A DNA stretch of 64,000 bases. Origin: Mugil cephalus. Lineage: Eukaryota; Chordata; Actinopteri; Mugiliformes; Mugilidae. Location: positions 13,399,913 through 13,463,912 of the forward strand of contig NC_061783.1 in the NCBI RefSeq assembly GCF_022458985.1, read 5' to 3'. Within the stretch, counting starts at the first letter, position 1; every line of letters begins with the position of its first letter. Below, in pieces: positions 3,346 through 64,000 of the stretch. The position numbers were made by a program, and so were the translations under genes. The notes beneath the pieces are model-generated. The model worked only from the letters and a program-made list of their open reading frames with translations. It did no database searches and was not told the DNA's origin.

Positions 3346-15087
<11,742 letters not shown>

Positions 15088-22709: not shown

Positions 22710-24031
22710 TCCCAGCGTGCATTGCGCTGCTATCTGTCGGCAAGGCTGCGCAGTAGAGTTCTGCGCAGGAAAGAGATGTTGACCGAAGTCAGTGACCGAA
22801 ATCCCATCAAAATGTAAGGAAGCGTTTAATTTAAAATTATTTCGTTAATTTTCATAATTCAAAACGAGTAATCTCTCGATATTAAACTATTTTTCAACAG
22901 GCTAGATGTAGACATAGCATGTAACAATTTAAAAATACTTAATAACTAGTAAAAATATAGCTTTCCGAAAGTCATCGGACACATGAGGATGCAGTAATAG
23001 CCTAATTTATTGTAGACTATATCTGTTAAGTTGTGCATAATGGTGTACGAATATTTTAATGTTCCAGTTGTAATGTTTCAACATTTATAACACTGTGCGG
23101 TGTCGGCAAATTAAATTTACCAACTAAGTCTAATCTTGATTAAAATTAAATTCAAGGTATGTAATTTATTTTGAAGGATATTGTAACTCAAATGTTATGA
23201 GAGAACAACTGACTTATGTGCCTCCTCCTGGCTGTATTTAGAGGGTTTATAAAAATCACAGGGCATTTTACATTTTTAGTGTCACTGTATTAGGTGTTCC
23301 TATTACTCTACATATCACATTGCTAGTGAAGGTTCAATGGTGTTTGAGGTTAAGTGGAGCCTGAGGTTACTGTATATGAGTTAGTCTACTGATTTGATTT
23401 GAACTATACTGATTTAGAGATATTACATATATTACATACATATTTTGGTATTTTACTTTGGAAAGCCTTAACCCACTTTTAATATACTGTAATATACGAG
23501 AGTGGAAGAATGAAAGCAGGTCTCAGAGTAATAGTTATTTTTATAAGTCACAGATCTCATTAAGGTGCCTCATCGGTCACTGGGGAGATTTTGTATTTTC
23601 CCCGCGGGTCTTTGCTCAAAGGCACGCCGGCAGCAGGCTAATAACCAGAGCATGGAGCTTTTTCGCTTTCCCCGCCCTAAGAGGTGGACGCTGCAGACTG
23701 GCTGAATAATGTATTTTTTGCCCCTGCGCCAGTCTCATGGAAACAGCCTAAGTTACAGTACACAACAAAAGACCACATTTCACCTGCGTGTCCAAGCTGC
23801 CGTCGGCACACAAGGACCTGAACCCATTCACAGGAGGAAGTAACGCAATGCGCAATTACGCGCGGGAGTAGAGGAATTTAACGACCGGCCAGTGTCTTTG
23901 GCTCTGCTCCGGGGCTTTTGCATTTCTCCGTTTAGAGGCGATTTATATGCTGCGACGTCATCATTGCAGCCGCAGCCTGCCCTCACCTGTTAACTCTCAA
24001 CTCATCCAGTCCTCTGTGCGCACAGGGCAGG
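22710..24031. other. Intergenic / divergent promoter region between rpl30 and erich5
   Basis: No coding region is supported. The right part (about 23590-24031) is richer in CpG and probably holds the erich5 promoter and 5' UTR. The left edge is the rpl30 promoter. The middle is AT-rich with nothing recognisable. Confidence 0.6.
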
Positions 24032-27000
24032 ATGGGATGCTCCACCAGTTCTCAAACTTCAGCGGTAGATACGACTCGACCCAGTGCTAAGCCCGAGGAG
24101 AGCAACGGAGCCAGCACCACAGGTGAGGCAAACAAAGAGATATGTTCAAGTACGGTGTACAACAAGAGATATGTTCACATAACTAAAAATAATGCTATCT
24201 TTAAAAAAAAATCCATACACGAATTTACAAAAGAAAGTACCAAGTGAGTGTATTTATTTTATTTTATTTGCAGCAACAGGTGAGTGTCTGGTTGTTAACA
24301 GACAGTTAACAGTTATATGAGTTTCAGGACCAACCACAGAAAAACAAACAAACAAACTACAAAAACAACAAACTAAACTACAGGTTCAGGTACCTTTGTT
24401 TTAGGTTTGTTTTGTATCTTAGATTTACCATGGCCTGGATGACTGTGAATCTACATAGACTAAAAAAAAAAGAAAAAGGAAAAAAAAGGTTTTATGTGCA
24501 TGTATAACGACGTTTATATTTTTCAAATTATTTCTATCTGTAGCCCCACTCGGTGTCTCCAATGTACTGATCAAACATTTCTCTAAGAGATATTTTATTC
24601 AAAGGTACACTATAAATAGCCTTAGTTTAGGAAGGTGGAAATGGTGTCACCTCGGGAGTTCACTGCTGTCTCCACATAGACTTGCATAGTCCATTTGATG
24701 ATACTGTTTTGATAAGAGTGGCACAGTCCAAATGCAAATAGCTCCCGGAGCACAGTATCCTCTGTCTTTATCTCTAATGAGCCAGAGCTCCACAGTGACG
24801 GGATGAGAAAGTTTATTGTCATTATTTAACAGTGGTTTCTGGCTCTGTCCTCCCTGAGAGAGACAGTGGCATGAAAACAGATTCAGTGACAGTCTACGGT
24901 TTCAGTAGGAAACAGAGAAGCCACTTTGGACACTCTTTTTTTTTTTTTTTTTTTTTTTTTGCCGTAGTGGGTCAGCTGTGGCTCTGCTGTGGTGCAAATG
25001 GGGTGGAGGTTAAACACCAGCACTGGATCATGCATTTGCATTTGACAGTGTGAAGGCAGCTTTGAACAAAATCTGGTCTGTTTGAGCAAATGTTAGTTTG
25101 TTGTATTGCAGCTTTAGCAGTATTTGACGCCGGCCAAAGAATGAGTAAGAGATTGGTAAAAGATTTATTAAGTGGGACCCCTGCTGAGAAGAAGTCATTC
25201 TGCCTTTCCACTCCTTGCAGACCTGCTTGGGAGTCATGCTCACATAAATCAGTACACTGAAATACATAAACTTTAGAGTGAAAAGGGGAATAAAGGGCTA
25301 AAATGGTCATTTTTAGCTCACTATGACCTCTGACCTTCTTATAGAGGTGACAAGCAAAAAGAGAACGTCTCAGAACAGACAAACAAAAACGTTGCTGTTG
25401 ATGACAACAGATACCTGGGCTCCTTTTTCTGTTTTCTCAGCTGGATGATGTCTTCTTAGAGGTCAGATGGAAATTTCACAGGATGTCTTCTAAGTTTTGC
25501 ATGCAGCTTATTTTCATTAACTTGATGCCACTTGTCACTCGCAAGACAGAAGAAGGGCAACACTTCACGCTCGAAATGCGCCGGTCTTAGTTCGACGCAC
25601 GTCATCGGTATCAAAATCACAAAATGGATTTACATTGGAGTAATATTTTTGAAGCTCGTTGATGCAGTCAGCGAGTGCGTCTGCCAGGACACATTTGTTA
25701 AGTGCTGACAAAAATCATGCAAAGTGAATTTTGAAAATAAGTCTTCTTCACCTCTAGTGACAGTTTTAAACGTTGTGTTATTTTATGGCATTTTGTGACA
25801 TTTGGTTATTCTTTGTGCTTGAAGAACATTGATAGTTGATCGGGACTTCTATGATCCATGCAAAATGAGTATGCAAATCACTCTACAAAGAACTCTACAA
25901 GGAAGTGATACTCAGGATTGCTAGACATGCAACAACCTGTTCACAGAGCTGTGAACTGTGCTGTCCTAGGCCATTGCTGTTCATTATTAACACCCACATC
26001 ATTAACACCCACATTAATATTAACACTTTATAACTCTTTATGATTGCATTTAAACACGAGAGGAGGCCTTTTTTTGTTTTTATTTTACATTACTTGTAAG
26101 ATCCGATTTAACAGTTTTACAGGTATTTGGAGAAGGAATAAATCAATATTTCTGCTTTTTATTGCTCATCTGCTTTTTGGTGAAAAGGTCAGTTTTGAAA
26201 TATCCAGCGATCAGAGAATGTAGTGTAAGTCACCTAATTTTGGTCCGTTCTCTCAAATAATTAACGCATTTAACTCGTAAGGTATAAAATCACATGATAC
26301 ATTTGAATTCGTCAGTCAGCGTTGCATGGCAACCATAATGTTAGCAATGCAGTCTGGTCACAGATTAACTTTTCTCTCTTGTTTTGGATAAGTCAACTAT
26401 GTAACCAGTGTGTAGACAACTAAAACAAGGTAAACCCAACTGCACAACAGGCATCCCCAAATCATCTGTCATTTAAGTGAGGAAAGTCTTGTGTCCGTGT
26501 GTGTTTTCTTGGGTAAATCTATGGTTACAAAATAGTGAGTAAAATGCTGTGTTGCCCTGATCTTCAACTTTCATGGAGCGAAATAGAAAATGGCAAAGGC
26601 AATTAAATAATGTCAATACTGGCTCTTGACCCACATTGTGTCACATTTGAATCATGTGAAACAGCTATATTGTAAAATAACGTAATATAGTGGACTATTA
26701 TTGACACATATATGTTATTAAAAAAAAAAAGTTAAATGTGCGGTAAATTATTAAGCATAAGCAAAACTTTTTAATGACCATAGAGTGAGTGACGGTACCT
26801 GTGTTTTCTAACAGGGTTGGCCAATGAGAATGGAAAAGTAGCAGAAGACAGTGAAACTATTCCCGACCAGACACCCGCTGCGCCTGCTGAAGGCGGCGAT
26901 GCTAAGCCTGACAATGAATCTGCTGTCGCTGCGACAGCTGCAGACACCAACTCGGCAAATCCGCCAGCAGCGGAGGAGCCCAAGCCTGCTGCTGCTGACG

Positions 27001-30000
27001 GCCCACCTGCAGAAACGCCAGCAGCGGACAGCAATGCTGAAGCTCCAGGTAGGTGGGAATAAAAATAACAAATACAAGATAATGCCAATTTTTCCAAGGA
27101 GATGGAATGTTAGTAGACCTGAGGCTAGGCAATGCCTGACCTGTGATATAGGCCATAGTGACCCATGAAGACACCCACCTGTTAATCACAGAGTTCTCCA
27201 AATTAGGGAAATTAGCTGTAGAGATCACAGCCTGTTCAACTGGTCACCACAATAGTCACAAAATCCATCAGCCTCATTACGAGAAGGGGACACTTTGTAC
27301 CAATGACCAACAATAACCTGAGCAGTAATTCGGGATGCCACAGCACCCAAGTACATAATGTCCCTCCTGTCCTTTTCCTCCCCAGTCCCTCTGCAATAAC
27401 AGTAACTAGGTGGTATCCAACAACACACAGACATGACTTTGGCTTTTAATGAACACACCGGGGTGGCCGCAGGAATGCGTTTCCCGGTCACACCTCTAAT
27501 TATTTAGTCAGCATCACAGGATCAGCCTCCATATCGCACCAGAAAAGGCTTTAAATTAAGGTTTGATTGGCTGAGCGCCATCTAAAAACTTAGCTACGAC
27601 GTGTACTTCCTGGTGGCCGGGCGGCGATGCTGCAAACTCGTGCATGAACAGCCCGTTGACCAATAATCATTGTTTGTCGAGGGTGTCGAATTTGACTTTG
27701 TAGTTTTGTCTTGCCAACGAAGCAGGTGTCGGGTATCCTAGCAGCTGCCACTTATCATTTCCAACCAGGATCCTCGCATGTCTTTTAAGAGTGAACTGAA
27801 ATGTTTGAAAGCCACTGGATGCCGCATATTATGTAGGTTTAAGCCTGGAAACAAAGCAAGAGGCATTTGTTGTCTCTGGGGGAAACATGCTGCCTCTCCC
27901 AGACCTTTATTATCAGGGGAATATGCCGAATTATAAATTCAAGAGAGCACTTCAGAGTGACTACCGGTCTGCACAGCGGTAATCTCTCTGCACACTTCCC
28001 TCTGCATGATTATCTGTACATGGAAGTGCTCCACAGGGGTGTGCATGACACATTGCATTCACTGTTATCACTTCATTTAGTGCTTCATGATGCAAATGAG
28101 TGAGTCCAGCTCCTCATTTGTCAAATGCAAAGTGTATGCAATCTAGGCCATTAGGGAGAAGGGACACAGTAGCAAACCATTGCCATATTAGATGTAATTT
28201 CTTCCCTGATCATTTATTCTGAGCTGTTTCTCGCATAGTTTGACCATAACTTTTAAACTCCTGTCATTACACTAGCTCCTTTTCTTTTTCCCTGTTAAGA
28301 ATACGGTTAAAACTTAGTCACAATATAGGTTGTCATCGGTCCATCCTGTGTCTTTACTTGATCTTGACCTCCTTTGGTGTCCAACCTGACTTGTCCCCGG
28401 TTCAAGCGTGACCCCAGCCCTGTTTGGATGTTCCGCATGCTGTGTGTTCAAAACCCTGCGGCTTCATTAAGGTGCAATCTGAGTCCGCAAAGAAACCAGA
28501 GCACGGCGACACATATAGGGCTTCCACTGACGCCGAACGCTGAGCCTTCATTTCACAGCCAATGGATGGACGGGATCGAGTGTCACATAAGCTGAGTGGA
28601 CAGAGCGGCGCATCCCCTTGTGAGGCGGCTACTGGCCGACTGTAGGATCGGCGTCACAAGTCTCTGAGTGAAGACTGCAAATGGAACAAGTGACTGTTGT
28701 TATTGAGATTTCACACATCAGTATTATTCTGAAGATGTGTACCCTCTCATCTAAAAGGCTTCTTAACCAATCAAAAAAATTGGTAGTCCCAGGCCTGCTA
28801 ACCTCTTGCTGGGTCATTGGGTGTTGCCAAGGTTGTCAAGGAGTTAACCCCTGGTCAACTAGGTCACAAGAGTTTAAAAAAGTCTAGGAACTCATCCACA
28901 CTGGTAAGTATCCATCTTTTAACGGCAATTAGTGGGAACCAATTTGTAGTTCATGAAGTTTCTGATGGGTTTTACCCACAGAGTTCCCTATTTAAACCTC
29001 AACCTCCCACCAGTCTCTTAGGACTGAAGAAGCTACTCGGATAAGCGGTGAAACATCTTCAAAGAAGTTCAGTTCCCTTTTTTTTTAAAATGTCTTTTGG
29101 ATTATCGTGATCTGGATAATTGAGAACCTACACAGACATTTCCATCACACTGAAGTAGCTTTTGGATGAGAGGCGAAAAGGCTTTGCTACCTACAAACCC
29201 TGACCTGGATAACTAGATTGAATGGTGTTATAGGCATTTTTCTTGTTTATGTATTGTGAGCTTGATCAAAACCTTGAATTAATACCCACTTCATATGTGC
29301 AAATACATTTAAAGACAATGTTTACAACCCATACTTACTACCAGGCTCTTTGTGTTCACCGCCGTAGCATGCCCAATGCTGAGGCTCACACGTCATGGAC
29401 ATCATCCACATTATTTGTGCCAAGTGGCTTTGAAGCTCAGAGTGGATGGCGCTGGCTGTTGCCATCTTGGCACAGAATAACTCTTGGCTCTGTCAAAACC
29501 GGGCAAAGAGGTGAAGCCGGAGTGGAACCGAGGCTGGGCAAGTGACACCTGGGCAGACAGCTAACACCCCGGGATGGCACCCATCGGTCTCTTAAAGCAG
29601 GCACTGTCTCAACTCTGCATAACTTTAAGCCTTGCTACTGGAGTTGACCTCGAGTGAATTGATTAAAACTGATTGATTGGGGTGACAGTGCATTATGTCT
29701 GTTGAATGTTTTAAATATAATTTTAGTTTTGGAAAGTGAACACAAACTAGATCAGTAGAGAGCCAACACACAGGGACACATGTATGCATCGAAAATCCGT
29801 GGTTTGTTGCGTTTTCCTAACCCCGTCGACCACCAGGTGAATACAACCTCCTGAGACCCTGCGTCCTCATATGGGGACGTTAAGTTTCAGGTTTGTGGCA
29901 TTCATTATTACACAGGGGAAGATGTTACAATCCCTTGTGCCAAGGCCCACATAATGCCGTACCCCAGTAGCGTGTGAGTGGGAAATACCAGCATTTCAAC

Positions 30001-30552
30001 CACCTTAACAGTAGGTGGGCCCTTGGTAAAAAGCAGCTTTTTCAGTTTCATTTATCTTTTATCCTCATAACTAGATGCTAGTTGCTGTAAAAACATGAAA
30101 GGATTCAGTGGATTCATTCTTCCACAATCATGTAACAAAAGTGGACAAGGCACAAAACCTCATCACATTTTACAGCTGATTTATTGTTATATACAGTAAA
30201 ATAATCCTCATGCCCACATGTGAGGACATAATGTTTTCCAACTTCCTGTCCAAAGGTGATGCTTAGTTTTTATACTTCTTGGGTCCCATTAATCCCAAAT
30301 ACCCGATGCAATAAAAACAAACAAAAGCTCTGGTCTTATGACGTTAAACGTGATCATTGTTCAAATCCACAATTTTTCTTGTCTCTCTCTCTAAACAGCA
30401 AATGAAGAGGCCACAGCGGCTGACACAGAGCCCAAAACAGAGGAGGCACCAGGTGAGCGGCGTCGATGTAGTTTCCTCATCATGTCACGCAATCCACAAA
30501 CAAATATCCTAACACGATTTCCCTCTTTGTGCTTCCAGCCCCCAGCGAGTGA
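24032..30552 (+). CDS. erich5: Glutamate-rich protein 5-like, short acylated Ala/Glu-rich protein
   Basis: Four coding exons: 24032-24122, 26815-27048, 30399-30452 and 30539-30552, all joined at the same phase, encode 130 residues. The protein starts MGCSTSSQTS. Gly2 with Ser at the sixth position fits N-myristoylation, and Cys3 could be palmitoylated, so membrane anchoring is likely. The rest is low-complexity and acidic (Ala, Pro, Glu and Asp), resembling BASP1-type proteins. The MGCSSS-like start and position between RPL30 and RIDA match human ERICH5 (C8orf47). The fish product is about a third of the human length. No enzymatic domain is seen and the molecular role of the family is unknown. 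Exon 4 adds only four codons before the TGA. Identity rests on the N terminus and synteny because the rest is compositionally biased. Confidence 0.85.
29020..29216 (+). repeat. Dispersed teleost repeat in erich5 intron 2
   Basis: Contains ACTGAAGAAGCTACTCGGAT, GGTGAAACATCTTCAAAGAA and the GATCTGGATAATTGAGAACC / CTACACAGACA block, which recur together in many fish genomes. A second small piece of the same block (CTGGATGACTGTGAATCTAC) lies at about 24433-24461 in intron 1. The element class is not certain. Confidence 0.55.
29380..29690 (+). repeat. Probable dispersed repeat in erich5 intron 2
   Basis: The block with GGATGGCACCCATCGGTCTC and GCATAACTTTAAGCCTTGCT looks like a repeated genomic segment I associate with fish DNA, but only one copy is in this window, so the call rests on recollection. 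Confidence 0.3.
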
Positions 30553-31164: not shown

Positions 31165-31416
31165 AGGTTTTACTACATTTTTATTGCATATGTGTCAGTT
31201 TATGTGAAAAAACAAACAAACAAACAAACAGAAAATGAGTAACTTTTTATGCTTTAGTTCATGTACAGTTTGCCAGATTTCCAAGCAGAGATTTATTGTG
31301 AAAGGCAAATCTAAAGGTTTGAAAATGGTCCATCTGCAACAAAAGTCAGGAGATAACGGTTTGGATGGTTTAACGAGACGGTTTGGCTACAACTTGTTTC
31401 CGATGTGGCCGGATAG
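31165..31416 (-). other. rida: rida 3' untranslated region
   Basis: Follows the TGA at 31419-31417. The first AATAAA on the minus strand is at 31185-31180, giving a 3' UTR of about 250 nt that ends close to the convergent erich5 transcript. Confidence 0.6.
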
Positions 31417-34400
31417 TCAGGAGTCAGAGAGAGGACCGAGAACAGCGACGGCCTCAATCTCCACCAGTCCACCCTGAAAAAGAAGTGGGCAGAGAGACAT
31501 TGAGGACACAGGGACAGAAGAAACGTAGGTACGAAGATATTACAAGACATGATCGAGTCATGATTCCATCACTCATGAGTAGGAGTCTTACACGTTTTCA
31601 GGCCTAGGATCCCCAAACTGATGGCGAGATTAAGTAGGGGCCCCCTACCTACTATATGTGTTCTATATTAAACGTGGTGCTAGTGCTATTTATAAATATA
31701 CATTATTATTATCATTTTGCATTCATTATTAAGTTAATCAAATAATAAACAGGTCCGTTGGTTGCCACCCCCCTGCAGGACCTCTATGGTCCTCCTAGGG
31801 GTTGCGGACCCCCTGTTGAAGACCTATGCTTGAGAGTATGTTACATTTGTATTAATTTCCTAGAGATTTGGACTAAACGAAACCATTATGTGCCATTCGC
31901 ACACTGCTAACACTCACCCTAACCTTTAGTGAAGTGGGGTTGTTTGAGTCAATGTGGGCTGAACGCTGCACTTTGGAGAACTAGAGACAAGAGCTCCACT
32001 GTACACAGTGGAAAGGCTCAGCAGCTATTTAAGCCACTTACACTAGCCCCTCCTTAAACAGTCAATTTCTACTTCACTTCATATTCAAAAAATTATAAAT
32101 GCTTTACCTTAGTGTCTGACAGGCTTTTTCCCACAGGGCAGTGAAGCCACTATATTCCTCTCCTCAGAGCCACCAGACTCCCTTTATAAAAGCTTTACTT
32201 TATCTCACAGAACCTGGGGGTTGCAGGTCTATCACTGCATGACTTGGGTGTTTTATTGAGCTAACTTAGATCCAAACTTAAGCGTTAACACACCAAAGTC
32301 AAACAATGACACAGACAAATGAACCGATCTAGGCGGCGGTGGACCGGCAACCCTAGTGATCTGTGAGATAATAATCTAATTTTTGTCTTTGGAGTCTGGT
32401 GAGCATAGATCGATATAATGGCTTCAGTTCCCTGTTAGAAAAATCTGTCTGACACCAACTTAAAATGCTGATAATATTCTGTAGGAATAACAACAAGTTT
32501 ACATCAATTCATGACTTAACTGAAGCCAAACTATTCATCTAACTCTGATCTAAAAATAATGTTTAAACCACAGCGACTTGCCATCTGTTGTGGTATTTAA
32601 GCATTGAAAGGTTCACCGAAACTATTTTACACCAAAACCAGCAGTGACAACGGCCACGTATTGTTGTCTGAAAACACTCGCCACGGATGAATGAGCATGC
32701 ACCTAGCTACAAATATTTTCCATCAGCCCCTGGGTATCGATGCGCACACAGTAAATCAGATGTGCTGGTTGTACTTACTCTGGGCAGAGCGGCAACTTGA
32801 TAGGCGGCTCTTGCAGGGAAATTTTTACTGAAAACTGCAGAAAGTAAAAACAAAAAGATAATTTTCATTACATTTGCATTGTCAAAGAAGCGTATTGGCA
32901 AGCTGTAGTTAAATCTCTTCATCCATCTATGGACACTTCTGTTTGAATGGAATATTTGACTTTCTAATAATACAAATAAAAAGAAAATGACTAAATGTGA
33001 CCAAATGAGCAAATATATAACGCATTTATTAAGGCTAAGTGATAAAAACAGTGAGCAGATAGCAGCAGAGGCCGGAAACCTGTATTATTATGCCTTATTA
33101 GAAAATGTATTAACGTTATACTGTCAAAAAGCAAATTGAGCTTTTATTGCCACAATATAAACAGGTAATAATTGATTTAAAATACACTATAATGGAACTT
33201 TAGGGAGACATTATTGAGGGTTTATTAAACTAAAGCCTGTTTTATCTTTAAATTTATTATGTCTGCATTTTACTACATAGTCTCACTTCTTTTGTAGTGT
33301 AATGTATTAAATATTTATTTATTGATAAGTACTTAATGGTGCGGTTAAAATAAAGTTCTTCAGTGATGAGGTTTGAAGTTCCTGCATCTGCAGTGGATAA
33401 ACTCTAGATAAACTCTCCTTATTTTTCAAAGGTTTTCACCAGACAGAATGGAAAAATGTACTTTTTACCTGTGATTTACTCAAATCTACACCACATTGCA
33501 TCACACTGAACACATGTCCTCCCCTTCTCCTTGTCAGGGTCAGGGAAAGTTCCCTGCCTGCGGTTTAGGGTTGAGTGGAGCAGACGTGAGGGAGCTGGGA
33601 GTCGAGGCTTACGAGCGCCCGAGTCAACGCCCGCTGCTGCAGGTTGGGTTTCACCTGCGTGCCTGCACAGCGGTGTCTCTTTACAACTCGCTGGACTCCG
33701 CAGATTCCATTACACCCAGGTGTTGTGATCCAGGAGGAAATGCCCGGTCGAGGGAGCGAGGAGGGTGGTGCATCCGCACAACAGAGGAGGAGCTGAGTGA
33801 GCCTCGCTTTCAGGTGACGGCTAAACCCGGAGGCGCTCATTTTCTGAGGGATGTCAGTGAAATATGAGGCTCTGCTTCTCCTCGCGGCCTCACAGGTCTG
33901 GAGAGCTCTATTAAAACCCTTTAATATATGTGGTGCTGGATATTTATGTATTATCTGTCTTCCATCCATGTCTTAATTGTGTGAACATTGGTCATATTAA
34001 TTAAATGTGAGCATAATAGGATTTTTTTTATTTTAATTGATGTAATTCAATCTAATTGTTATATCACAAAAAACGAATTAAACCAATGCATGCTTTGTTT
34101 TTTTTTTCACTAAGTGCCTTGCTCAAGGATACTTCAGCTGGCTACACAACTGATACCATGGGAGACACAATTATGAACCCTGTCACTCAGCTAAAATCTA
34201 AAAGGCTGGATCACAACAACAACAGTTGTTTGTGTGGAGGCCACTGACATGACTGCAGCTCTGGCAGCCTCGGGTTAAAGCTGCCCCCGTGTGGCTGCTT
34301 CGTATATTTAAAATATGAGAGGAGCGGCTACATTTTATCAGAACAAGTTGAGGCCAAATTAATGTCTGTTATATTCCTTTACAGCATGGGATAAAGGCTG

Positions 34401-36283
34401 TGTAGTGTTAGTTCACTATCCTGATCTTTACTGTACATGTAAAGCCAGCTGTGATAATTTTTCAAAGCTGGCCACAAATGTTAAGGTTTCATTCCTAATT
34501 TCCTCTCTCAGACAGGAGCAAATTGTGCGTGTGTTGGGGACTACTTTCAGGGGCGGATTAATTCTCGTTTTGGTAAAAGACTTCTAAGGCTCATATTTGA
34601 CAGCACAGTATGTTGCTGATAGTGAGTCAGGCCTCCTGCTGATTGGTGTTTTAATGTGACACCGATTAATGTCCATACCACCATAAACAATAAAGTATCG
34701 ACTCACACGTCTTGTAGACCTCGTTGACGCTGTTGAAGTCGTTTATATCTGCCAGCAGCACAGTCGTCTTCACCACTGAAACGAAAAGGCAATTTGTTGA
34801 GAGTAAGAGAGTTTGTGTTCAATGTTAAAAAAAGAACGTGTGAAAAGTACGAGAAGAAGCGGAGTAAAGGAAATGTGTGATAGCAGAAGTGAGATCTCAC
34901 CGTTGCTATAGTCACAACCAGCAGATTTAAGGATCTCCCCCATGTTGATAAGAGCCTGAGAGAGATTAAACATGTAATCATTTATTTATTTATGTGGATG
35001 AGGCCTTAATTCATTTTTATTATATGTATATATATATATTTTTTAAATGCTTATGGTTACCTTCAGTCATCTCTGAAAATTTTAGATTTCGTTTTAAGTG
35101 ATCATTATAGTAACACACAATGGTACTTAAATAACTCCAGACAATTAAAATAAAAAATTAAAGGATACCTGTCTTCTTATTAAAATATAAACAGATGTTA
35201 AAATAGGAATTAAATTTCTGAGCCAGCACATGGCACTAAACTTTTCCTCACACTTATATGTTGTATGCGAGTTATTTCTCTGGGAATCATTGAACAAAAC
35301 GGACTCAAATGTGGTCAGCTGTCACCTGTTTGGCTTGGGCCTGCACTCCTCCATCTACCAGCTTCCCGGAGGCCACGTCCAGCCCCAGCTGACCAGAGAT
35401 GTACATGGTTCGGTCCACAACCACCGCCTGGCTGAGGACGACACACAGGACACACATATACGCTACTTAGACCTGGAAACTTCCACCAACTGCATGACAG
35501 CAACAGATTTAGTCCTTACATGGCAGTACTAGAGTGAAGAATCCTGTTTGATACTTTCTCACACTGTTTCCAGCACCTTTCATTATTATCTGTCCGTCAG
35601 TGGTTAGACACTCGTGGCCACATAAAAAGTGAATAATGATATTTAATGTCTACAAAAATCTGACACAAACTAGAGAAGAGTCCATTCAAACACAAACCCC
35701 TCCTGCTGACAGCCAATTGGCCAGAGCAGGAACACCCCTCAGTTTGTCTGCAGACTAAACTAAACAACAAAATAGCTTTGTGACAAGTTATTTCATATTA
35801 AATATCACTTCTTCTTCTTTTTTTGTTAATGTAAAGATATTATAAATCAAAATTTTGATATTTTTTTAATAAGGCTCCTTGAAGTCCAATCATTACATTT
35901 TCAACGACATATTTATTATATTCTTACCTGTATATTCCCTGTCTGACAGGAGCTTTTGGTGTGTAAGTGATTTGTCGACGGATAGTTGCCATAGTTGTCA
36001 AATCCTGATGCTCCCTGTCTGCCTGTCCGTTTTACAGATTTCTGCTCTGCTCCGTTAAACTTTGGCACTTTCTTTTTTTTTTTTTTTTACGGGGTAGAGT
36101 CAAGCAGGTGAGTTCATTGAACACTAAGTCACGCCCCTGAGCAAATACGATTTGATTCACGCAAACATTTTAGCTCCTGCAGCCCACGTGTTGCTGTGTG
36201 TTGGTATATTTGTCGTACCTGTATGGGCCGATGGCAGCAGGGGCTGCTGTGGTGTTAACGATCCTCCTACCGAGGGCAGACAT
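31417..36283 (-). CDS. rida: Reactive imine/enamine deaminase RIDA (UK114/HRSP12), canonical first exon
   Basis: Six coding exons on the minus strand: 36283-36219, 35431-35326, 34955-34901, 34775-34707, 32834-32779 and 31473-31417. They encode 135 residues (human 137). The enzyme hydrolyses reactive 2-aminoacrylate-type enamines and imines to 2-oxo acids. Family signatures are present: AIGPYSQAVVVDRTMYISGQ near the N terminus, KTTVLLADINDF, and NFPARAAYQVAALPR carrying the carboxylate-binding arginine (Arg107 here), then VEIEAVAVLGPLSDS at the end. Exon phases all agree. A second candidate first exon lies in intron 1 (entered separately). The gene is convergent with erich5 and lies just downstream of the stk3 polyadenylation signal on the same strand. 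Confidence 0.96.
31603..31830 (+). repeat. Dispersed repeat, copy 1 of 2 (rida intron 5)
   Basis: Shares ATCCCCAAACTGATGGCGAG-type ends, the CCCCCTACCTACTATATGTG core and a GGACCCCCTGTTGAAGA end with a second copy at 60788-61080. No coding capacity. The CCCC/GGGG ends suggest a non-autonomous DNA transposon, possibly hAT-related, but target duplications are not clear. Confidence 0.7.
33485..33870. other. CpG-rich segment inside rida intron 5
   Basis: This block is clearly more GC- and CpG-rich than the surrounding intron and is open on both strands (33496-33867 plus, 33969-33565 minus). Neither translation shows a domain. A pyrimidine stretch ending in CAG precedes it, so it could contain an unknown exon or regulatory island, or be a repeat. 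Confidence 0.3.
34108..34195 (+). repeat. Short dispersed repeat fragment in rida intron 4
   Basis: CTAAGTGCCTTGCTCAAGGA and the following bases match a repeat found very often in fish introns (usually GTGCCTTGCTCAAGGGCAC). It is a short 3' fragment only. Confidence 0.45.
35928..35992 (-). CDS. rida: Alternative first coding exon of rida (exon 1B)
   Basis: Within intron 1, the minus strand holds an ATG at 35992 followed by 21 codons plus 2 nt, ending at a good donor (CAG|GTAAGA) after 35928. This is the same length (65 nt) and phase as canonical exon 1 (36283-36219), so it can join exon 2 in frame. The peptide starts MATIRRQITYTPKAP and ends GIY, with the last serine completed by exon 2. It matches the canonical 22 residues at 9 places without gaps. 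It keeps the KAP and YSQ landmarks of the family but replaces AIGPY with RQGIY. Best read as an ancient duplicate used as an alternative promoter/first exon. It could be silent, but no stop or broken splice site is seen. Confidence 0.75.
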
Positions 36284-36509
36284 GTTTCCCTGATTTCAGG
36301 TGCGCTGGTAATAAATGAATGAAGAGGTTGTGCAACAAGTTGTGGAATATCGGGAACAGTTGCACTCGTAAAAGTTACCGTAATGTATAGTCAACAAGAG
36401 CCGCACGTAATTTTGGAGTGAGGAAATGTCGCGGAAAAGCGAGCTAATTGCGCTCGTATTGGAGGAATTACGGTACAACAGGTGTAAAATAAAATCCAGG
36501 CCACTGCAC
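36284..36509 (-). promoter_or_regulatory. rida: rida promoter region, squeezed behind stk3
   Basis: Only about 230-250 bp separate the rida start codon from the stk3 polyadenylation signal on the same strand. No TATA box stands out, and no coding region is supported. Confidence 0.4.
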
Positions 36510-38967
36510 TCCGGGTTAACTATACTTTTATTATTTCTTGCACGGTTTCAAACTTTTTAAAGTATTCCAAACAAAACATAATAAATTAAGTGGTTCAAAC
36601 ATAAATGCTTACATTCCACTCTACACCCTTAAGTCATTATATGGAAAGAACAATAAAGACGGAGAGAATCATAGAGATATAGCAAAACGTGATTTCAGAG
36701 AACTGTACATGATATGGCCGATTATGAACCATTTCAAATTTTAAAACAGGACTTTCGTTTTGTTAATTGTACAGAGAAATTGATTTTATTCGAAGCATAA
36801 TTAAAAATAAAGCATCTTCTGTATTAACAGTACTCTTTCCTGTGCAGTTACTACAAGAGCATTCCACTACATAGCAAACGTAATGATAAACATGCATAGT
36901 CTAAACACAGAGAAATCACATTTCTTTGACCTGGAGTGGAAACAGTAACAGCCAGAATTAGCCATCTTATTTAAATCACAAAAAGAAAAAGAACACGCTT
37001 TAATAAATAAAAGTTTGAATGCTTGTGTGTAGTAAGTTGCCAATGATCTGCAGTTTTAATTCAGTTGCAGGTGATCACGTTAAAAAAGGTTCCTCCTTCA
37101 AGTAGAAAAATAGACCAAGACAGAAGAAAACAAACAAACAGATATAATGATTTACAATCTGGTGGTTACTACTGATTGAAATTTGGATTCATGTCCGCTA
37201 AGTTTGGCCCCGAGATGTGACAGTGAGACACTTCATATGCATCAATAGCCAAACATTGTAACAGCAACCTGCAGACATATTGTACGTACATTTAATTCAA
37301 TTCATTCAAAGGGTCACGATTAGCACGAAATAAACTGCTGATGGGAACAGAAAACAGCTTGTATTATGAAGTGACATGTTTATATATTACTGGTAGGAAA
37401 AATGTTTGACAGTGGAGAAAAATGTGATTATAGGAATAAAATTTTGATTATGTTGGTTCTTATGTGCTGTATGTGAGACATTTTACAGTTCAACAGGAAA
37501 CGTGCCAGCTCTCCCTGATGAGGAAAACTGTGTGATACTTGACAATTGCTGCAAGGTTATCTTTAGCATTTGTGTATGAATATGTACCGCGCCCTCCGCA
37601 GTTAAAGTGACTTTAACAAGATATAAGACTTGGGTCGTTTTCAGATTAAAAAAAAAAAACAATGCAGAGAGTACATCTTCATTCATTGCTGGCATCTCAC
37701 TCTAAATGTCGGCACGTCACTTTCATGACTGCGAAAAAAAAAGAAAACTTGATGTGATAACAAAAAAGAAAACGATCTTACGTGCGGCTCTGTTTTTACC
37801 TGTATGAGTCAGTAATGATACTTCCACTCAGCTACTCCACTGAGTCCTGTTTTAATGTGGTCCTCTGCTTTCTGTTAAGAACAGCATCACACTTGGCTCA
37901 AATGTTCTTTAAAGTCTCTTAAAACTGAAGTCAGTTGGAGAAAATTGAGAACTTCTACATAAATCTGCAAGTTTATTTTAAAAAATCAAAGTCAGTATTT
38001 AGGAATGCTTGTACTTTTTCCCCTCCTAATTAGGAACACATTTCTGTGCCGTCTCTTCTATTAAATCAAAAACAGTGTTTCAATCTGTTGAGTGAGGGCT
38101 CTGTTGTTAGAGACCGGACTGGAGCTGGGTCAGAGTGTTAACATGAGGCACTAAGATGCATCGCGCCCGTCACTATAGACAGTGGATGTATAACTAAGCC
38201 CAAAACATAATACCCTGAAAACAAGTTAAATAAGAGAGATCATTTTCTGGTCCACAAACGGGTTGAAAACATGCGTGATCCGTTCTTCGCCATCCACACG
38301 ATTTCCTGCTTGTGCTGACAAACATTTGCAGCTTTCACTGGTTCACTTCCGTCTCGTCTCCAAGCGAGACGACGGATTCAACCATCCAATTACTTGGTTG
38401 TTTTTATTACATTGCTTATTTTGAAAACCAGGTTTCAAATATTTTTTAAGGCATTCTCCACTTCATCATCAACATCATCATCAACATCATCTTGATTGTC
38501 TTTGGTCATGGATGAACCTCCACAGCTTTTGTTGCAGGTATTTTCAAACTAGGCTCTGTATTATATTTACACTGAAAGTAAAAATTCTGAGAGGGTAAAA
38601 AAAGAAGACCACGTCACTGACCCCACTCCTCATGCTGCTGCTACTGCCGAAGGGTTGTTTATGTGCTGATGTGGATTTCCCGAGGGTTCTTTGCATAACG
38701 TGACAGCAATTTCATGGAGAAAACAGGAAGCTATTTTAGTGATGTATACTGGCCTCGGTTTGTTGGCTTGGCCGGCGCCCTGAGCGTCGTTCGTGTTGAA
38801 AGCAACAGCATCTAACTTCATTCAGAGGCCAGTTCGCAGTCAGTCAGAACCGTGGAGGGCGTCCGATGAGAGGAATTAGGTCATCTTAGTTACCCAGAGT
38901 CACTGGGGTATGAGCTTTGTGGTAATGGTTACAGTTGGGAAAGGAAGGAGGAGGAGAGGAGGAGCGC
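36510..38967 (-). other. stk3: stk3 3' untranslated region
   Basis: About 2.45 kb of AT-rich non-coding sequence downstream of the stk3 stop, ending near AATAAA on the minus strand (36532-36527). It includes a small ATCATCAAC tandem run around 38463-38492. No other gene is supported. Confidence 0.6.
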
Positions 38968-44117
<5,150 letters not shown>

Positions 44118-61500: not shown

Positions 61501-62832
61501 ACACGGGATAGGGCATTTAGATTAGGAACGTGTAATAAGCGATGGTTGGTTGTTTATTGCACCTGTACCACTGTCACCTCTGTTCCCATTTCTCTGAATA
61601 AGCTGTGACCACAGCTGTTCCAGATTGTTTCTGGGTCTCCTCACCTTTCTGCCCACATAAACTGGGATGCCAATGATCATCGCGGGGATGGCGATGCCGG
61701 CAATGAGGGCGATACCCACGGGGGCCCCCACCAACGTGCCGAGCTGCCACAGAATCTTCTTCTTCCTGCTCCAGGGCTTCTTCCCCCAAAAGGTGCAGCC
61801 AGACGGACTGAGAGGATGTGAGAGAGAGGAAATGGTTTGTTAGGGGTTAAGACAGAAATGCTGCGTGTGTGTGTGTGCATCACTGTAACAACTAATACTG
61901 AAAAAACTAATTTCACTATAAGTGCGATGATTCTGAAGCTGGCAAATGTTCGATTTTGTGGTAAATGATCTTTAAAACTCAATCCCACCTTAAGTAGTGC
62001 AGGTCAGAGATCTCCTTCATGCACAGCCAACAAAACTCACAGCCGCACACGGCGCAGGTCATGTGATTACAGCTCCCATCGTTCATCTTGATGATGTAGG
62101 CGGCACAGCGAGGGCATGGCTTGATGTCATCTCCTGGTGCAGGTTGATTGAGTTATTTATTTGTTTACTTTAGTTACAATTCATGGAGCATGTCGTATGC
62201 AATGTCGTATAAAGGGGGACTGGACCAGTAACACAATAGCTTGTTAACTTATAAATGACGGCAACTCTAAATGTTTCTATTTGTTCTAGTGCTGAGAAGT
62301 ACATTATGAAAGTGTTTGCATTTAATGAACTGAACGACTTCAAAACATTTTATGAAGCCAGACGTTTGTTTAGAAAAACAAGTGGAATTTCTGAATATTT
62401 CTTGGTCTCAGTGTTGTGTTACTGTATATCCACAACTCTTACTAAAACTGTGTGAACCCAGTTTGCAGTTAATGTCTTCAATGTATTTTCTACACTTTGC
62501 AAATTCATCCCATGGGCCACATCAGACCCTCTGGAGGGCCGTGCAAAGGCGGAGTTGAAGAAGATGTAAGACAGATCAGGTTAGTCTACATTCATTTCGT
62601 GTAAGTATGTATCCGTATGTTACCTGCGGCTCCGCTCTCTTGGCTGTAGCTGAGCGAGGACGACCTGAAGCTCCTCAGCCGCAGGCTCTGGGCCCTCTGC
62701 TGCCGCGCCGTGTCACATGTCTGGTTGGGATGCCACAGCTGTTTGCAGTGGTAGCAGAACTCCGTCCCGCAGCCCTCGCGCCCACAGGTGATCTTCGGGC
62801 AGCTGGCGCAGCCGAACGCAATGACTGCGTAT
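58562..62832 (-). CDS. rnf19a: E3 ubiquitin-protein ligase RNF19A (dorfin), 3' part
   Basis: Eight exons on the minus strand: 62832-62624, 62133-61989, 61807-61645, 61328-61214, 60717-60559, 59997-59778, 59612-59469 and 59339-58562 (about 644 residues; human 838 in all). The first continues a codon from an exon outside the window. The visible part holds the IBR domain ([20 protein letters not shown]), then RING2 ([20 protein letters not shown]) with the catalytic cysteine expected in DGSCNHM. Two membrane segments follow ([20 protein letters not shown] and the region around [20 protein letters not shown]), then a long serine-rich cytosolic tail ending in QTDI. RBR ligases pass ubiquitin through the RING2 cysteine. 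RING1 is off the right edge. The last exon (778 bp) is more divergent and Ser/Pro/His-rich. Synteny favours 19A over 19B. Confidence 0.96.
60788..61080 (+). repeat. Dispersed repeat, copy 2 of 2 (rnf19a intron)
   Basis: Same family and orientation as 31603-31830. Shared parts are CCCCCAAACTGATGGAGAGA, ACCCCCTACCTACTATATGT and the GACCCCCTGTTAAAGA end. The interior has diverged and is longer here. Confidence 0.7.
62210..62550 (+). repeat. Degraded hAT-like non-autonomous element (rnf19a intron)
   Basis: Related to 48125-48544: GGGGGACTGGACCAGTAACA and TGGGCCACATCAGACCCTCT correspond to internal blocks of that copy in the same order. The terminal GTGTCAAA-type ends are missing, so it is an old truncated copy. 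Confidence 0.55.
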
Positions 62833-64000
62833 CTGAAAACAAAAAAAAAACACATCCAAAATGGTGGTTGTTAAGTCAGAGGGCGGCGTAGGGGTGTAGT
62901 AGTGGAGCACGACACCAGGGGTCAGCAGGGCTGAAATGGTCACGGAGTGAAGCGAAGGAGCAGTTTCTGACGTGATCTGCGTGTGACCGCCGCCGCCGAC
63001 GTCCTCAGGAATCTACCACCTGGCCGGCTCGAAATCTGGGTGAGCGCCCGTCACCGTAGCAACCACCATCAATCATTTCAGTGGTTTGTTTGAGAACGGT
63101 TCACGGCACGGCACGGCGCGGCCCGAGACAAGGTCCAAAGTTATAAATACGCAAATCTAAAAACAACTTGACCAAGTGACACGATTAAAAAAAAAATATA
63201 TATCAGTGTGGCATTAGTCATTTGCACTCGCCAGTTCATTAGGTACACGAGTGAAAATGAAAATGAAAGCTTTCAGCTTTATGAAGGTCACGGTGTTAAA
63301 CGTTTGCTTAAAATAACCCGGAGAGATGTTGATTCAACTGTTACTATTTTAACTTCTACTATTTTTGACAAGTCATGGGTTTGGATTAAAAAAAAAGACA
63401 GAAACACTTTAGCGTTTATTTCAGTCCAGTTCAGCAGCTCCTCGTACTACATCTTCCTAAATGATAATCCAGGTGACTTACTTTTCATAACTTATCTCAC
63501 CTCTCTGACACAGGTTCACCATAAACCAAAAATTATCAGTCATAAAGATAAGATTTATAAGTGCAGGACTGTAGTATTAGAAACCATTCATTCACTAGTT
63601 CACCCAATGAACTGGAAAGTGAGGGTATATCCACTTAATGCCTCATACACATGGGGAAACATGCAATACACAAAATACACTTGTGTCCAGATGGCGCCTT
63701 AAATGCTGCGTACGTACGACGCCTTTAGTTACACGCAGCGATTGTCGTAGCCAGCACGTATCACCCACCGTGGTTATCAAAGGAACATTAGGAACAGACG
63801 ATAAGGAAGAGCAAACACTCTGACGTACGATGTCGACAGCACCGTGCAACAGCTCTGCAGTGGGAATCGTATGTAGCACAGAGGCCAGGTCTCAGAAACC
63901 CCTCAGCTGATCCTCTCTATAATCACACGCAACAGTATCTGGACGGAGAAAAGCCTGCACTTAAACAAGCTGCTTATTCAGTTGAGAGCAAATGCGCCGA
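62833..64000 (-). other. rnf19a: rnf19a intron running off the right edge
   Basis: No upstream rnf19a exon (RING1 or the DCRWCPAPDCG region) is seen before the window ends. A 164-codon plus-strand open frame at 63208-63702 has no domain. The stretch CCAGTTCATTAGGTACAC at 63231-63248 belongs to a very common fish repeat. Confidence 0.6.

Follow-up and report, generated by a model that had tools for sequence, protein, structure and literature searches.

The closest described systems are the two RidA proteins of Salmo salar, SsRidA-1 and SsRidA-2, for which imine deaminase activity is known (PMC7311433). SsRidA-1 prefers nonpolar imino acids, as does goat RidA; SsRidA-2, treated by Digiovanni et al. 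(2020) as a diverged paralog, is weaker overall and relatively better on Glu-derived and most aromatic-derived imino acids, with the exception of the Trp-derived imino acid, on which goat RidA performs better (PMC7311433). Both proteins complement a Salmonella ridA mutant (PMC7311433). The authors put the specificity of SsRidA-2 down to the loop of residues 15–20, where Pro20 and small hydrophobic residues have given way to R17, Q18, and I20 (PMC7311433). The melting temperature of SsRidA-2 is 65°C, as against about 100°C; Pro9 is given as one part of the cause of this low value, and the absence of an N-to-C-terminal intersubunit sheet as another (PMC7311433). The protein is active when made in bacteria and is also known from cDNA; of the two ridA-2 cDNA sources, one is pyloric caeca and the other a mix of brain, kidney, and spleen (PMC7311433). 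The two salmon genes also differ in neighborhood, as ridA-2 adjoins stk3, while ridA-1 is flanked by matn2, pop1, and nipal2 (PMC7311433).

The DNA analyzed here, called the window, is a stretch of 64,000 nucleotides from Mugil cephalus. Its minus strand carries a rida gene in which an exon coding for an N terminus of the SsRidA-2 type stands beside one coding for the canonical type.

Two first coding exons and one enzyme body

The gene is made up of the following parts:

36219..36283, minus strand: exon 1A, encoding MSALGRRIVNTTAAPAAIGPY(S), the canonical N terminus of RidA-1 and human type; donor CAG/GTACGA
35993..36218, minus strand: spacer of 226 nt between 1A and 1B
35928..35992, minus strand: exon 1B, encoding MATIRRQITYTPKAPVRQGIY(S), an N terminus of RidA-2 type with R17, Q18, and I20; donor CAG/GTAAGA
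35326..35431, minus strand: exon 2, common to both forms
34901..34955, minus strand: exon 3, common to both forms
34707..34775, minus strand: exon 4, common to both forms
32779..32834, minus strand: exon 5, common to both forms, carrying Arg107
31417..31473, minus strand: exon 6, common to both forms, carrying Glu122 and the stop codon; AATAAA at 31297

The earlier note had described two ATG exons of 65 nt and equal phase, 226 bp apart, both with good donors and both able to splice to 35431, and all of this was borne out (36283–36219 and 35992–35928). Each exon is open and joins exon 2 in frame, so that, as in alternative first exons, two starts with their own ATG, open frame, and donor meet one acceptor in the same phase; the codon for Ser22 is completed by exon 2 in both cases. 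Each exon occurs once on the minus strand of the window. Position −3 of the ATG context is A in both exons, and in 1B this is joined by a G at +4. An in-frame stop lies 15 nt upstream of the ATG of 1A and 42 nt upstream of that of 1B. A recount of the 22-residue N termini gave the nine identities already noted, including Met1 and Ser22. Outside the exons the similarity was lost, with identity at 24 of 100 bases upstream and 32 of 100 downstream, and the pair thus shows no sign of a recent duplication. No further copies of exon 1 were found in the window, where the next best scores were ≤23, after 91 for 1B and 29 for 1A.

The exon borders of the body are ordinary (AG/GT), and the six-exon gene in its 1A form translates in full, with no stop, into 135 aa, from which the 1B form departs at residues 1–22 only. 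Both isoforms scored well above the cut-offs of PF01042 (141.4 and 132.6 bits; cut-off 27.3) and TIGR00004 (168.5 and 153.1 bits; cut-off 106.25). Tyr21, Arg107, and Glu122, the acetate contacts in RidA (PMC7311433), were invariant in a five-row alignment.

In a PDB search, the first match of the 1B form was 6TCD (SsRidA-2; E 1.9e-72), and that of the 1A form, which has the same body, was 6TCC (SsRidA-1; E 4.2e-69). Exon 1B is identical to SsRidA-2 at 13 of 22 residues, and exon 1A to SsRidA-1 at 15 and to human RIDA at 14 of 22. Of six N termini set side by side, only those of 1B and SsRidA-2 have Y10, P12, R17, Q18, and I20; the other four (1A, ridA-1 of the same genome, SsRidA-1, and human) are canonical. 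The R17-Q18-x-I20 loop, a trait of ridA-2, is present in 1B alone of the two exons. A second trait, Pro9, is absent, since 1B has Thr9; in SsRidA-2, Pro9 lies in strand beta-1 and is a stability feature, not a stated criterion of the family. All of the residues singled out in salmon, 9 and 15–20, are encoded by exon 1 in the window gene. The earlier note had left it undecided whether such an isoform had been described in fish: as a protein, the 1B-type N terminus is already known as SsRidA-2, from cDNAs and a crystal structure (PMC7311433).

As a prokaryotic control, we used the best 80 of 85 confirmed relatives from a GTDB alignment scan. In these 80 loci, position 20 was Pro in 78, Ser in one, and Ala in one, with I20 in none; position 17 was Ala in 68 and Pro in two of the 70 aligned, with R17 in none; and Gln18 occurred in none of the 71 aligned. 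Pro20 is not absolute, as the 1qah chain (PDB) has Ala20. Taken together with the salmon comparison, this control indicates that the R17/Q18/I20 loop is a rare state of 1B and SsRidA-2 and not a common motif. Scans of viral contigs and of GTDB contigs with a fish-typical RidA motif gave 0 matches each, and none of 43 pattern matches was confirmed when viral contigs were searched with the 1A protein.

The window gene and its paralog

The body of the window gene is identical to SsRidA-2 at 99 of 112 sites and to SsRidA-1 at 94 of 112. At the 15 of 112 sites that separate the two salmon bodies, it is SsRidA-2-like at nine, SsRidA-1-like at four, and like neither at two. In a tree of the bodies (10 rows: the window gene, two salmon, human, and, as outgroups, six of the 80 prokaryotic loci), the branch uniting the window gene and SsRidA-2 was weakly supported (56/76), and none of the seven inner branches was well supported. 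Pairing the window gene with SsRidA-1 was marginally rejected (p-AU 0.049); pairing SsRidA-1 with SsRidA-2 was not rejected (p 0.33).

The neighborhood points in the same direction, as the window gene lies beside stk3 and apart from the ridA-1 type of locus with matn2, pop1, and nipal2:

38971..41422, minus strand: exons of stk3 (Hippo kinase), upstream of rida

The SARAH reading frame at 38971–39210 matched STK3 best (6ao5, E 1.2e-23; best STK4 match 2.5e-14). The kinase frame at 40753–41070 did not separate the two (STK4 1e-29, STK3 1.7e-29), and the frame at 41186–41422 was assigned to stk3 by eye only.

A PF01042 search of the fish's own genome (635 Mb, 24 contigs; six candidates scored) returned three matches at E ≤0.001: the window gene, a ridA-1 gene on contig C11, and a distant Rid-like exon on C17. 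The gene on C11 is a second six-exon gene, with an exon 1 of the 1A type (MATLIRRIISTTKAPAAIGPY) and an SsRidA-1-like body; of six neighboring frames tested, four gave families, namely VWA, POP1, NIPA, and LYRIC. No 1B-like exon was found on either strand of C11:20750500–20760400, where the best score was 16.5, excepting ridA-1's own exon 1 (35); 1B itself scores 91. None of the three genome matches was a retrocopy of rida, which might have preserved a spliced 1A or 1B transcript.

From its body, its stk3 neighbor, and the presence of ridA-1 elsewhere, the window gene is most likely the teleost ridA-2 copy, carrying both starts. The earlier note had called it rida; it is most likely not the canonical copy.

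Several other features were observed along the way. The exon on C17 (C17:14867699–14867947; L084:4200–4448; PF01042 46 bits, 19%–22% identical) probably belongs to dph6, a diphthamide enzyme gene with a Rid-like portion. In the window, exons at 23936–30455 on the plus strand, convergent with rida, look to us like erich5; the one frame tested among them, 26793–27059, gave no family match. A Glu/Ala-rich frame lies at the matching place of the ridA-1 locus on C11 (L090 5378–5998), and both duplicated rida loci may keep an erich5 copy. A zinc ribbon exon (PF03604) is located at 43810–44046 on the plus strand and an IBR-domain exon (PF01485) at 62595–62870 on the minus strand. We take the former to be of polr2k type and the latter to be probably rnf19a; with stk3, they resemble the human 8q22 gene neighborhood. 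A Tc1/mariner-type transposase frame (357 aa stop to stop; HTH_SB, HTH_Tnp_Tc3_2, and DDE_3) is found at 9352–10422 on the plus strand.

Start sites, coding constraint, and exon usage

One further feature bears on where transcription begins:

36284..36550, minus strand: stretch rich in CpG ahead of 1A, probably the promoter of a 1A transcript

In the 201 nt centered on 36400, the observed/expected CpG ratio is 1.46, the 99.5th percentile of the window, and the plain count of 12 CpG per 201 nt is at the 95th percentile. A CCAAT is present at 36462. A simple scan also found an acceptor-like site upstream of 1A, a pyrimidine-rich run followed by AG at 36306; a noncoding exon may therefore precede 1A. 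Upstream of 1B there was no promoter signature (CpG ratio 0.74, 76th percentile; no TATA or CCAAT match), and the same kind of scan detected no AG with a pyrimidine-rich run ahead of it in the 226 nt before its ATG. With no such acceptor in the spacer, 1B resembles a genuine first exon rather than an internal exon.

We consider it quite probable that the window ridA-2 joins two alternative first coding exons, with separate starts, to a common body, and that their exchange would swap the specificity loop. In line with the two promoters suggested in the earlier note, transcription would begin either upstream of 1A or between 1A and 1B, i.e., in 35993–36218, and each mRNA would carry its own 65-nt exon spliced to exon 2, with exons 2–6 providing one shared enzyme body. 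Since the choice of start would pick the exon, only residues 1–22 would be swapped, and it is in these residues that the substrate loop sits, to which the salmon structures point as the determinant of specificity. The 1A start would give a canonical RidA with the small hydrophobic loop AAIGPY, and the 1B start a RidA-2-type enzyme with the positively charged loop RQGIY, in which the proline normally adjacent to the active-site tyrosine is missing. Provided that both transcripts are made in Mugil cephalus and that the specificity measured in salmon carries over to this fish, the 1A type would act on nonpolar imino acids and the 1B type relatively more on Glu- and aromatic-derived ones, so that one gene would probably yield two enzymes with different substrate preferences. 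A difference in substrate range, proposed in the earlier note, is accordingly likely by analogy with the altered specificity of the homologous salmon protein (PMC7311433); for the difference in cell location proposed with it, we saw nothing in support.

Alternatively, a single promoter upstream of 1A might serve both forms, the donor of 1A being skipped and the 1B protein arising by reinitiation after a 37-codon frame. The exons are merely 226 nt apart, and the unspliced frame of 1A does end after 37 codons. With that frame and two further ATGs, at 36168 and 36117, ahead of the ATG of 1B, its use from the 1A promoter would need reinitiation and would be inefficient. The strong Kozak context and donor of 1B also suggest a normal first exon, and we regard a single promoter as unlikely.

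That both exons are in use is further suggested by their coding constraint. Against exon 1 of ridA-1, 1A is identical at 49 of 65 bases and 16 of 22 residues (dN 0.20, dS 0.77, dN/dS 0.26), with pS ≤ pN in 0.9% of bootstraps, and 1B at 36 of 65 bases and 12 of 22 residues (pN 0.35; pS 0.78, saturated), with pS > pN in 99.0% of bootstraps. For comparison, the body of the window gene against that of ridA-1 gave dN 0.11, dS 2.15, and a ratio of 0.05, with synonymous sites near saturation. In the direct comparison of 1A with 1B, the ratio was 0.46 and not significant (pS ≤ pN in 16.3% of bootstraps). Outside the window, 1B-type sequence was compared with salmon only, as protein. We also simulated neutral drift, scoring the survival of the ATG, the frame, the GT, and the observed identity to salmon at three assumed distances. 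For 1A and 1B alike, a single run in 20,000 retained all of these at 0.75 substitutions per site; the share was 0.09% (1A) and 0.38% (1B) at a distance of 0.5, and 4.2% (1A) and 7.1% (1B) at 0.3. Both exons look to be under selection: they are short and the single tests modest, and the results are concordant with the salmon match. The suggestion of a duplicated first coding exon kept under coding constraint is thus supported at this strength, by the ratio for 1A and by the SsRidA-2 loop kept in 1B.

It could also be that only 1B is used in ridA-2, with 1A a leftover from before the gene duplication, now absent from mRNA. Both salmon ridA-2 cDNAs encode SsRidA-2, i.e., the 1B-type protein (PMC7311433), so that at the window locus the exon without homologous transcript evidence is 1A and not 1B; moreover, the 1A type is already supplied by ridA-1 of the same genome. 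However, 1A is intact in its ATG, frame, and donor, it keeps its likeness and low dN/dS to ridA-1 exon 1 despite a body dS of about 2.15, and the promoter-like CpG-rich stretch sits upstream of it. We hold this reading to be quite unlikely. Still less credible is that only 1A is used and 1B is a decaying duplicate: 1B has no promoter signature, but it has its loop in common with a salmon protein whose cDNA is known and which showed activity on expression in bacteria, and its donor and Kozak context are strong.

The similarity of 1B to RidA was also set against chance, with open stretches of ATG, 65 nt, and GT as candidates. The window (both strands) held 54, whose best identities, 1A and 1B aside, were five to 1A, six to human RIDA, and seven to SsRidA-2; 5 Mb of Markov-1 random DNA (one strand) held 1813, with maxima of eight, seven, and seven, respectively. 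Exon 1B has nine identities to 1A, nine to human RIDA, and 13 to SsRidA-2. That 1B is a chance open frame resembling RidA, for which nothing speaks except its shortness of 65 nt, can practically be dismissed, as none of the 1813 random candidates reached nine identities to 1A, which agrees with the earlier judgment that the pattern is hard to get by chance, and the match to SsRidA-2 at 13 of 22 residues already refutes it.

Age of the exon pair and comparison with known systems

Nucleotide sites at which two of the three exons agree numbered 20 for 1A and ridA-1 exon 1, six for 1A and 1B, and seven for 1B and ridA-1 exon 1. In this short alignment, changes common to 1A and 1B are not overrepresented, unlike what a doubling of the exon after the ridA-1/ridA-2 split would leave, which weakly favors a pair at least as old as that split, 1B having since disappeared from ridA-1. 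A later exon duplication with fast change of 1B is the alternative.

Following the older origin, it is conceivable, though we hold it only tentatively, that both teleost RidA types were the first exons of one gene before the genome duplication and were then sorted by unequal loss. In that case ridA-1 would have lost 1B, Mugil cephalus ridA-2 would retain both exons, and salmon ridA-2 would be known through 1B alone. Mixed trimers would be conceivable as well, given an active site located between subunits and identical isoform bodies; co-expressed 1A and 1B chains could then give a graded specificity. The published view is that the odd substrate range of RidA-2 is a specialization of a duplicated gene (PMC7311433). 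Here, the loop residues named as its cause lie in one 65-nt exon beside the ordinary version in the same gene, and the locus may be a case of whole-genome duplication sorting pre-existing isoforms between paralogs. The two forms would amount to a natural exon-swap experiment, with identical bodies and differences at 13 of residues 1–22, whereas the bodies of the salmon pair differ too, at 15 of 112 sites; 1B would also separate specificity, as R17, Q18, and I20 are retained, from low stability, as Pro9 is not.

What is known, then, is the RidA-2 protein; apparently new is that its N terminus is encoded by a putative alternative first exon next to a conserved exon of the canonical type, although automatic genome annotations may carry the two N termini as isoforms already. 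No description of a fish rida gene with two first exons was found in the open-access literature, as judged by titles and abstract openings, and the terms "first exon" and "splic" are absent from the main text of PMC7311433. SsRidA-2 (Salmo salar ridA-2, chromosome 14, 6TCD) resembles the window gene in its body, its stk3 synteny, and the R17/Q18/I20 loop of 1B. It differs from the 1B form in having Pro9 instead of Thr9 and at 13 of 112 body sites, and its gene is presented in that main text as a six-exon paralog with no alternative first exon, whereas the window gene has two (PMC7311433). SsRidA-1 and mammalian RIDA (UK114, HRSP12; 6TCC, 1ONI) belong to the same family as the 1A form; the AAIGPYS loop is common to exon 1A and SsRidA-1 and reads GAIGPYS in human. 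The gene of SsRidA-1 type in Mugil cephalus has a locus of its own on C11, where a single first exon was found. Alternative first coding exons driven by alternative promoters are a known gene arrangement. As in such genes, two first exons here lead to one shared acceptor; the window gene differs from them in that the exon swapped is a homologous copy carrying the substrate loop of the enzyme.
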